Assembly: GCF_022919575.1 (NCBI RefSeq) | Contig: NZ_CP095071.1 | Span: forward strand, 3,358,001 to 3,422,000 | Reading direction: 5' to 3' | Length of the DNA stretch: 64,000 nt | Source: Gracilibacillus salinarum | GTDB taxonomy: Bacteria > Bacillota > Bacilli > Bacillales > Amphibacillaceae | The notes under the pieces: generated by a model | What the model saw: only the letters and a program-made list of their open reading frames with translations | Database searches by the model: none | Told to the model about the DNA's origin: nothing | Made by a program: the position numbers and the translations under genes | Shown here: positions 18,598 through 21,455 of the stretch, one piece after another | Layout: each line of letters begins with the position of its first letter | Position numbering within the stretch: position 1 is the first letter of the stretch

Positions 18598-19151
18598 TAA
18601 GCAAAGAAAGTATATAAGTACAGTCGTAGAAGTAATCATGCTGAATAGGAAGATAGGTTCCTATAATATGGATTATGTCAACTAAGGCTATATGGCAAAA
18701 CGGTCATTTTGAAATATTTTGTCTGCGTTGCAAAGCTCCGGAAATAGGCTCCGCGTCCTGTGGGGCACGGCTTCAGCTAACTTAGGAAAGAAAATTCTTT
18801 TCTTTCCTAAGTGGATCTTCAGCTCGCGCTGATCCCACGGGAGTCTCCGCCTATTTCCTACGCTTTAGGGAAGTTCTACAACGTATGGAACAGCTAAAAG
18901 CAGTGGTTCTAGGCATTATGTTATTCAAAAGCTGATATTTATGGTGTGATCAATATGCTAGTAATTCCGAAAGTTGTAGAGCAAACATCCTAGCGTAGGC
19001 CAACCACGTAGACTGATATGAACGAAACTGTCAAGGCCCTCTCGCAAACAATGGAAAGTTTCTAATTTTGGGCAACCTTAAGCTAAGAGTCTATGTTGGC
19101 TCTTTTTTTAAATACTATTCAATAAGCAGAGATATGCAAAATATCTCCTTC

Positions 19152-19251
19152 TTCTTAGCTTACCAACTTCTCCTCTCCTATCAAAAGGATTGTCAAGTGT
19201 TCTCCTTGACGATCCTTTTGATAGGAGAGACACTTATGCAAAGCTAAGAAA
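19152..19251. repeat. Long hairpin in the IS 3' end
   Basis: TTCTTAGCTT/AAGCTAAGAA encloses CTCTCCTATCAAAAGGAT...ATCCTTTTGATAGGAGAG with one internal mismatch pair and a small loop. It lies between the bridge-RNA candidate and the IS end, and may terminate or protect that RNA. Confidence 0.7.
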
Positions 19252-19288
19252 TAATGGGATTCACCCTTCCTTTTCAGTTATAAAGGAG

Positions 19289-19456
19289 GTGAACACACGG
19301 CATGAAGGCAAAAATTCTCTGCTCCGATTGGCATACTGATATCCGTGGGTTCTCACATTTTATCTTTCCGTTTCAGGATCTGTCACGAACTCCTGGCGTG
19401 CGTTCACTATTAAAACATAGCTAGCACAAGTCTACGTCGTGCGTTATCCTTTACGG
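19289..19456 (-). ncRNA. Candidate bridge RNA of the IS110-family element
   Basis: Read on the minus strand, 3' of the transposase. Target loop (19368-19456): stems CCGT/ACGG, AGGAT/ATCCT and CACG/CGTG enclose an internal loop. Its left side is ACGTAGACT (19429-19437), its right side contains GGAGT (19389-19393), and an apical hairpin GTGC-CTAT/ATAG-GCAC separates them. ACGTAGACT equals the left flank plus core of the insertion site, and GGAGT is complementary to ACTCC across the core and right flank. Donor loop (19289-19356): stem GTGAGAAC-CACGG/CCGTG-GTTCAC, with ATATCAGT (19335-19342) complementary to ACTGATAT at the IS left end. The left donor guide is not clearly identified. Placement downstream of the transposase matches IS1111 elements. 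Confidence 0.75.
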
Positions 19457-19543
19457 TTTTTATCTTTGCCTTCAAGCCCTATATTCATTTCCTTTTATTA
19501 CAGATCACTTCTTCCTTTTATTCGCGCATGCCTACTTTAATGA

Positions 19544-20652
19544 TTACGTAAATTCATTAGTTGGTTCGTTGGCAATTGCCCATATGAAACCTGCCAACTC
19601 TCTCCCAATAGCTGTGATAACTTTACCACTTTCTTTTCCTCGTCGCATTAGTCGGAAATACTTCTTATGCAAGCGTTGTTGGGCATTCCACGAAATAGTT
19701 GTAACATTAGCTGGTTGTCCTTTTTGTCTCTTTGCCAACTCTCCTTTCACGGCAGGTGAATAACGATAACTCCATGCAGCCTCAATCAAAAGCCTTCGAA
19801 CATGTCTATTTCCTGTTCTCGTTATATTACCTTGCTTCCGTATATACCCGCTGGAACTTTCCATCGGCACCAAACCTGTGTAGGCCATAAATTGGCTGGC
19901 TTTTTGAAAGCGTTCAAATGAACCGACTTCTGCCACTAAACTAGTTGCGGTGATTAAGGCTACACCTCGAAGTGACATAAGTTTTTGAATCATGGGGCAT
20001 GTACACCATTTTCGGCTTCTTCTTTAATAATCTTTTCTAATCGCTTTAATCGTTGTTGAGATTCCCTAAGTTGTTGCACATATTCTTGGAATATGCTCCT
20101 TGATGTTAATCGTTTAAATGTTAAGGTGTGAAGCCATTCCCAATATCTCACACTCCATTTTCTGACTCCTTCCGGTTCTTTTCTTCCATTTCTAAGAAGA
20201 AAATGGTTCACTCTATGTTTGGCTCTTTTTTCATCTTCCTTCACATCTTCACGTCCCCGAACTAAATCACGTAAAGCCTCATCATCTTCCGTGGGGACAA
20301 AAATCGGTGTTAATTCCCCTGCGCGATAAAGGGTTGCCAGATTTAAAGCATCTCGCTTATCGGTCTTCACCTTATCACCAGGTTTCTGAGGGATTAAGGA
20401 TGGCGCAATAACTTCGCAAGGGATATCCAAATGTGTAAGCAATCGATAGAGTCCATACCCAACAGCTCCGGCCTCATAACAAACTTGAAGCTCTGCGGAT
20501 TCTCCTAATTTCTTCATTATCTTATCAATGGCTCCTACCGTATAGTCAATCATCCCAATATACCTTGGTTTAGAACGTCCTTCATCCGCAACGGCTACTG
20601 CTATTTTCTCTTTCGATACGTCTAATCCTACATATTTTGTGTTATACTTCAT
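19544..20652 (-). pseudogene. IS110-family transposase, frameshifted
   Basis: Two frames make one protein. 19990-20652 encodes the N-terminal DEDD RuvC-like domain (YVGLDVSKEKIAVAV, CYEAGAVGYGLYRLL, KTDKRDALNLA). 19544-19993 encodes the Transposase_20 domain with the catalytic Ser region MESSSGYIRKQGNITRTGN. The frames join at GCCCCATGA: with five Cs the reading would continue Ala-Pro-Met-Ile-Gln without a break, so one C seems lost. The ATGA overlap could also allow reinitiation, giving two polypeptides. Whether the element is active is therefore open. Confidence 0.85.
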
Positions 20653-20994
20653 GGTACTAGCTCCTTTCGTATTTTAGCTCTGATTTGGGTTTTCATTTCA
20701 TTTACGCTATACCCGGATTAACCTTCGATAATACGAAAAGGGGCTAGTTTCGTTCATAATAACTCCCGCGGGATTATGCAGGTGCTGAAGATCCACTTTG
20801 TGAAGTGATCTTCTTCACAAAGTTAGCTTCAGCCGTGCCCCGCAGGACGCGAAGTGGTTGGCTGGAGCGGTATCCTAGCACATGAATCCTTTCAAAATCA
20901 CCACTAAGCAGCTAGTTAACATAATCCACATTATAAGAAGTTGTTTATTAATGAAGTCAATTAGGATCGGATGGTATATGCCCGGTTTTTTTAA

Positions 20995-21455
20995 AATAGT
21001 ATATAATCACTCTCATTAATGAGAGAAGAAAAGGAGCCAAAAGTAGAAAGCGGTGCAACAAGATTTGTATCGTTTTGTAAGAAAGGAACCAAAAGAGGGA
21101 ATTAGAAGTCCAAGATTTGTATCGTTTAGCGAGAAAGGAACCAAAAGAGGGAATTAGAAGTCCAAGATTTGTATCGTTTAGCGAGAAAGGAACCAAAAGA
21201 GGGAATTAGAAGTCCAAGATTTGTATCGTTTAGCGAGAAAGGAACCAAAAGAGGGAATCAGAAGTCCAAGATTTGTATCGTTTAGTGAGAAAGGAACCAA
21301 AAGATGGAAGCAGAAGTCCAAGATTTGTATCGTTTAACGAGAAAGGAACCAAAAGAGGGAATCAGAAGTCCAAGATTTGTATCGTTTAGCGAGAAAGAAG
21401 ACAAAAGAGGGAAGCGGAGAAAGAAGATTTGTATTGTTTAAAAAGAAAGAAGACA
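20995..21455 (+). repeat. 52-bp tandem repeat array, copy 2
   Basis: Units beginning AGATTTGTATCGTTT start at 21061, 21113, 21165, 21217, 21269, 21321 and 21373, all 52 bp apart. A divergent final unit at 21425 carries TTTAAAAAGAAAGAAGACAAA, as in array 1. The leader TATATAATCACTCTCATTA (21000-21018) matches array 1. The variable tail of the unit here is AGGGAATTAGAAGTCC, nearly uniform within the array. Minus-strand open frames across it are by-products. Confidence 0.9.

Follow-up and report, generated by a model that had tools for sequence, protein, structure and literature searches.

An IS1111-type insertion sequence of Gracilibacillus salinarum with a predicted bridge RNA whose loops match its insertion site

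An IS1111-type insertion sequence in the genome of Gracilibacillus salinarum carries, 3′ of its transposase gene, a conserved RNA structure whose loop bases correspond to the DNA on the two sides of its insertion site, and among its relatives these bases change together with the flanks. The best explanation, and very probably the correct one, is that insertion of the element is guided by a bridge RNA (seekRNA). A sequence-only reading of the window (the whole stretch of 64,000 nucleotides analysed here, to which all coordinates refer unless a genome position is given) had proposed such a guide RNA, and the comparisons described below, in which guides track flanks and the structure is conserved, lend support to that proposal.

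Results

The element and its transposase

The element lies on the minus strand at 19013–20762, as delimited by its subterminal inverted repeats and by an uninterrupted target found 76 times in the genome, and measures 1,750 bp with one CT core counted. Its DEDD transposase gene is broken by a frameshift into a first part (19990–20652, minus strand; PF01548, E = 3.6e-17) and a second part (19544–19993, minus strand; PF02371, E = 6.1e-22). Seven copies of the element are present in the host genome (4.8 Mb, one contig), with intact genes of 369 aa in copies L002, L004, and L006; given its broken gene, the window copy could move only if an intact copy provided the transposase. The intact transposase scores above the cut-off of the NCBIfam model “IS110 family RNA-guided transposase” (E = 6.9e-73) and matches the solved IS621 and ISCro4 transposases in sequence over ∼100–120 residues. 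Residues D11, E60, D98, D101, G260, P263, S268, and G269 are invariant among 10 aligned proteins, the element’s own included, and these comprise the DEDD catalytic residues, whose positions were assigned in the present analysis, and the G--P----SG motif, which is taken from PMC11187229.

IS1111 elements are defined by subterminal inverted repeats of ∼11–13 bp with 7-bp and 3-bp extensions (PMC11187229). In the window copy the repeats are 12 bp long and lie at 19018–19029 (plus strand) in the transposase-distal end (RE) and at 20746–20757 (plus strand) in the transposase-proximal end (LE), followed outward by a 3-bp extension (19015–19017) and by a 7-bp extension, core included (20758–20764), respectively. 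Further family traits are the 529 bp of noncoding DNA (19015–19543) 3′ of the transposase gene and an insertion that is site- and orientation-specific and causes no target duplication, as judged from all seven copies and from the uninterrupted site elsewhere in the genome. One copy, L007 (genome 2318873–2320509), is truncated, with 116 bp gone at LE, and its junction falls exactly at the CT adjoining the target (TTATA-CT-CCCGCGGG); this fits recombination at an internal false end, but also a deletion at a 3-base microhomology.

The insertion site and the host repeat

The sequence-only reading had the element interrupting its target at a CT core, and this was verified: the flanks read CCACGTAGA-CT and CT-CCCGCGGG, with the target left half at 19004–19012 (plus strand), the right half at 20765–20772 (plus strand) beyond the second CT, and the copies of the core, one per element end, at 19013–19014 and 20763–20764. 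The left half belongs to an interspersed repeat. In the host genome there are 76 exact occurrences of the uninterrupted 19-mer CCACGTAGACTCCCGCGGG, so the target and its core are not inferred from a single copy, and sites with at most three mismatches to it number 244, compared with 1 for a reversed control. Alignment of 31 such sites (30 GTAG, 1 GGAG) extends over ∼300 bp or more and shows a repeat with fold-back arms, GGCCAACCAC...GTGGTTGGCC. To the right of the element, at 21059–21413, there is also a tandem array of 6.8 copies of a 52-bp unit with 95% matches.

Every one of the seven copies is inserted at the CT core of this one repeat, in the same orientation relative to the core. Six are at CCACGTAGACT (GTAG) and one, L005, is at CCACATAGACT (ATAG); on the other side, L006 has CCCGCAGG in place of CCCGCGGG. 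None of the seven is at the variant of the 19-mer that reads GGAG and mismatches the guide at one base, although this variant is the commoner of the two (109 exact sites, compared with 76 for GTAG). The chance of such an outcome is ∼0.016 if the 244 sites are assumed to be used evenly. With only seven copies, this apparent avoidance gives modest backing to the view that a guide sets the choice of target.

A conserved RNA structure 3′ of the transposase gene

The minus strand of 19260–19480 has a predicted fold of −69.9 kcal/mol (z = −4.76), which none of 200 shuffled sequences equalled. Fold z-score, anchor matching, a covariance model, and pair counts together place the putative bridge RNA, with its closing stem, on the minus strand at 19299–19480. 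A foldable structure at this place had been predicted correctly, but not its limits, which had been put at 19289–19456; the closing stem gives ∼19299–19480 by anchor match. An alignment of 32 distinct RNAs (the window copy and 31 relatives) yields a consensus structure of 34 pairs, 9 of them with changes on both sides. In this alignment 95.9% of cells are paired, and the covariation score of 0.182 exceeds that of shuffled (0.096, SD 0.006) and slid (0.036–0.086) versions, so that conservation of the structure among relatives, anticipated from the one sequence, is evident as compensatory change.

The resulting covariance model, R1, scores 167 bits in the window at 19305–19472, the window copy being one of the 32 training rows. 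Modelling of the homologous 3′ ends had been suggested as a check, and in the host genome the model matches at seven places, one inside each copy of the element (150 of 989 first-look candidates were scored). Among 42 loci outside the training set, 36 were matched and 6 were not. Two of these matches are ended by a contig border and 34 are full length, 33 of them at E = 3e-12 or better and the remaining one, in L145, at 2.7e-6; elements from Paenibacillus and Cohnella are among those matched. No Rfam 15 family reaches its gathering score within the window.

Conservation of structure is expected whether the region serves as a guide or has been kept for another reason, such as regulation of the transposase mRNA, in which case the likeness to the target would be captured or inherited flank. 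This alternative, which we consider very improbable, is opposed by the behavior and placement of the loop bases: over 39 distinct targets they vary in step with unrelated flanks, whereas the stems are kept, and the guides lie inside the element in two separate loops, one for each DNA strand.

Target guides follow the flanks

The putative left target guide, ACGUAGACU, lies on the minus strand at 19429–19437 and corresponds to the flank plus the CT core, whereas the putative right target guide, GGAG, lies on the minus strand at 19390–19393 and comprises the core AG and two flank bases. As DNA, the minus strand reads ACGTAGACT at 19429–19437, in agreement with the nine-base loop match to left flank and core that had been reported, and GGAGTT at 19388–19393. 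A match of GGAGT to the core and right flank had also been claimed. GGAG stands, but the final T fits the target and the donor end alike here, and in the relatives those right-guide bases that come after the core follow the donor end, not the target.

Relatives were obtained by an alignment-based search of genome contigs; a single-protein search of such contigs found nothing. The best 80 of 238 loci from the alignment-based search, all of which were used, were joined by five of the seven host copies (without the window copy and the truncated L007), 30 further loci, and L139, and other partial or duplicate loci were omitted from this set of 116. Twenty-nine loci were then dropped, 7 in which no RNA was found and 22 with a flank missing or too short, and removal of 11 same-element duplicates from the remaining 87, which have the RNA and both flanks, left 76 elements. 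Permutation tests (20,000 permutations) used one element per distinct flank-plus-core target (n = 39), with relatedness among them not removed.

The longest match of the left guide to its own flank and core averages 7.03 nt, compared with 3.72 nt for permuted pairs, and that of the right target guide to its own flank averages 5.36 nt, compared with 3.88 nt; in neither case did any of the 20,000 permutations reach the observed value. Controls with the uncomplemented flank for the left guide (3.54 versus 3.51; 8,954 of 20,000) and with the wrong strand for the right guide (3.72 versus 3.59; 3,674 of 20,000) gave no signal. A reversed-flank control was raised (4.26 versus 3.55; 0 of 20,000), which we take to mean that base composition contributes a little. 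Among the 39 elements, the own target ranks best, alone or tied, for 30 of the left guides and 23 of the right guides. At the five bases adjoining the core, left guide and flank are in agreement in 62–71 of 71 cases, figures somewhat flattered by a register chosen for fit, and at the three bases adjoining the core the right guide agrees in 51, 60, and 62 of 64 (two loci skipped). Thus the suggestion that the loop bases should covary with the insertion-site flanks is borne out in 76 elements with 39 distinct targets.

Individual elements illustrate the correspondence. In L060, the guide AGUUUCACU accompanies the flank AGTGAAACT, and AUAAAG accompanies ATAAAG; in L099, GUUUGACGCU matches at 10 of 10 positions; and in L107, where the core at RE is AA rather than AG, the guide carries UU. 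Close relatives that differ by single bases in the guide show the same differences in their flanks (CGTAGA in L047, CGAAGA in L045, CGGAGA in L051), and another close relative, L053, has one mismatch between guide and flank. Short matches do occur: the left guide matches at 5 nt or fewer in 7 of the 76 elements (L113, L117, L118, L123, L141, L143, and L145) and the right guide at 3 nt or fewer in 4 (L048, L074, L110, and L145). Identical loops in unrelated targets, which had been named as evidence that would tell against a guide, are not the general case, since the loops follow the flanks, but L088 is an exception: it has the same RNA as L087 and L089 in a different setting, with 6 and 4 matching nucleotides. 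Such a poorly matching site is what an off-target insertion would give.

These comparisons also bear on the possibility that the protein itself recognizes the repeat or its fold and that the RNA is incidental to target choice. The present target is indeed a fold-back-like repeat, and insertion into targets of the REP type has been described in the family (PMC11187229). Yet relatives with transposases 64–75% identical have unrelated targets that are spelled out by their own RNA loops, and the insertions in the host, seven copies only, avoid the G variant that lies one base off the guide. We regard recognition by the protein alone as extremely improbable.

Donor guides and candidate handshake bases

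Guidance by the RNA would also involve the ends of the element. A match between a second stem-loop and the left end of the element, core included, had been noted earlier and is present as ATATCAG on the minus strand at 19336–19342; read as RNA, AUAUCAG is the candidate right donor guide, composed of element end plus core. In L006 (genome 1489206–1490951), which has an intact transposase frame, a 9-base deletion in the RNA removes part of this guide. For the left donor guide, the preferred reading is the five-base segment preceding the donor stem-loop, GAUAA in the window copy (19360–19364, minus strand); four of the five match the element’s own end and the fifth would form a G-T wobble. Over 26 distinct guide/end pairs, the mean agreement is 3.77 of 5, compared with 3.00 for permuted pairs (0 of 20,000), and ranges from 7 of 7, core included, in L098 and 5 of 5 in L106 to 2 of 5 in the weakest pair; the core is mostly unpaired across relatives. 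The candidate donor guides match both element ends, the left one more weakly. In the predicted donor-domain stem, which is partly GAUA/UAUC, the two donor guides would be paired with each other in the free RNA. ATAACT at 19276–19281 had been offered earlier as a weak match for this guide. It falls outside the closed structure, and only 3 of 76 relatives have an equivalent; it was rejected, and GAUAA is the best reading.

The UU that follows the right target guide (19388–19389, minus strand) fits the element’s own left end and is a possible handshake guide, the term used for such a relation of post-guide bases to the element end in IS621 (PMC11208158). Of 66 distinct RNA/end pairs, 59 have two bases in this position that equal the end of the element itself (TT in 51, TC in 6, CT in 2), a count for which 15 right-guide positions were placed by hand; among the 61 pairs with a known right flank, they match the element end in 54 and the target in 1. 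The apparent match rests mainly on a TT end that is nearly invariant: a match is seen for 8 of the 13 non-TT ends, and one of the 5 without a match belongs to the shortened RNA of L145. The corresponding base of the donor loop equals the first base of the target in 20 of 59 cases, compared with 9.2 in permutations (0 of 20,000), 13 of the 20 being T with T and many coming from related elements. The covariation in PMC11208158 covers “IS110 orthologues,” among which IS1111 members may or may not be included, and a literature search with few subscription papers within its scope found no paper on handshake pairing in IS1111.

Transcription signals and a second hairpin

The minus strand of RE at 19013–19034 contains TTGACA, and joining of RE to LE in a circle would give TTGACA-17-TATTAT. 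A promoter-like pair of this kind is found at all 51 distinct junctions, with 9–12 of 12 consensus matches (11–12 at 43), whereas only 3.5% of letter shuffles reach 9; TTGACA is exact at 43 of the 51 junctions. A junction promoter has been published for ISEc11 (PMC11187229). Directly before the RNA, a search for promoters found 6 promoter-like sites in 2 kb, compared with 4.8 in shuffles, and none stands out. Just inside RE, at 19085–19104 (plus strand), there is a terminator-like hairpin with a T run, oriented against any transcription coming in antisense to the guide RNA.

Between the RNA and the element end lies a second, palindromic hairpin of 37 bp with variable arms and the conserved tip UCAAG...CUUGA (19152–19250, minus strand). 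A pattern search recognized it in 24 of the 60 distinct segments; L045, L058, L127, and L136 are among the elements that have it. Positions 6–20 outward from the tip are paired in 22–24 of the 24, figures flattered by the selection of the segments, which required the tip motif and pairing at 15 or more of 26 positions. The arm sequences share only 52% identity, and an element’s own arms pair at 94% of positions, compared with 63% when an arm is taken from another element. Elements without the exact tip motif fold into long hairpins at this place in some cases and not in others, and the hairpin is thus not universal. A role of the arms as a further guide to host sites was considered and found no support: an 18-base arm occurs 16 times in the genome within two mismatches, 14 of them in copies of the element, and the other two, outside such copies, are at two mismatches.

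The likeliest role of this hairpin, suggested tentatively, is that of a processing or protection signal for the RNA that depends on structure only; processing of the RNA is likely to be by the transposase, according to the authors of PMC11187229. Taken together with the handshake bases, one possibility, to which we give somewhat less than even chances, is that IS1111 elements employ an IS621-like handshake, in which the bases following the right target guide stay complementary to the end of the element (guides that match are seen for TT, TC, and CT ends alike), and that in this clade the hairpin releases or protects the bridge RNA through an RNase III-type, structure-only signal.

Discussion

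In the mechanism that we propose, a minus-strand bridge RNA (seekRNA) of ∼180 nt would be made from the noncoding region 3′ of the transposase gene. In its first domain, the target loop, ACGUAGACU would pair with one strand of the left half of the target and the core, and GGAG with the opposite strand of the core and the right half. In the second domain, the donor loop, GAUAA and AUAUCAG would pair with the junction of the two element ends after excision. The DEDD transposase, carrying the RNA, would juxtapose the circular element and the genomic repeat, and strand exchange at the shared CT core would insert the element in one orientation and leave the target unduplicated; the UU that comes next to the right target guide may then pair with the end of the incoming element. 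The structure, the core, the protein family, and the tracking of flanks and ends by guides can be read from the compared sequences themselves, the signal of guide-to-end tracking being less strong at the left donor guide and at the handshake bases. Transcription from a circle-junction promoter, binding of the RNA, and recombination are steps that this element probably shares with its published relatives.

The data amount to an independent confirmation, drawn solely from sequence, that RNA-programmed insertion is likely to operate in an IS1111 group of the Bacillota. Dozens of naturally retargeted relatives supply matched guide/target pairs from which design rules concerning guide length, the left donor guide, and the handshake bases could be derived, and a host repeat with a one-base variant that is free of all seven copies constitutes a natural test of specificity. 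Three details merit further study: the possible handshake bases in IS1111, the assignment of the left donor guide, and the variable palindrome.

Both anatomy and mechanism agree with what was published in 2024 on IS110 and IS1111 elements, of which this is a clear further example and not a new mechanism. The seekRNAs of the IS1111 elements ISEc11, ISPa11, and ISKpn4 (PMC11187229) are likewise encoded 3′ of the transposase gene and have two target matches to opposite strands in the same order, and their elements share the subterminal repeats with 7- and 3-bp extensions and, as predicted here from the two hexamers, the junction promoter; natural retargeting between relatives is also seen in ISEc11/ISXne4 (PMC11187229). 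In contrast to these elements, the present set consists of other relatives, from the Bacillota in the named records and known from sequence alone, which insert into an interspersed repeat and have the 3′ palindrome, a feature not seen described in the parts of PMC11187229 consulted. With the bridge RNA of IS621 and the IS110 group (PMC11208160, PMC11208158) the present RNA has in common the target and donor loops, the left and right guides, the CT core, and the handshake-like bases after the right target guide. However, the IS110-group RNA lies in LE, 5′ of the gene, whereas the present one lies 3′ of the gene, and its left donor guide is here mostly without core pairing. Insertion into an abundant repeat is common to the present element and the REP-inserting elements IS621 and ISPa11, but the repeat unit targeted here is longer than REP, at ∼300 bp or more (31 sites).
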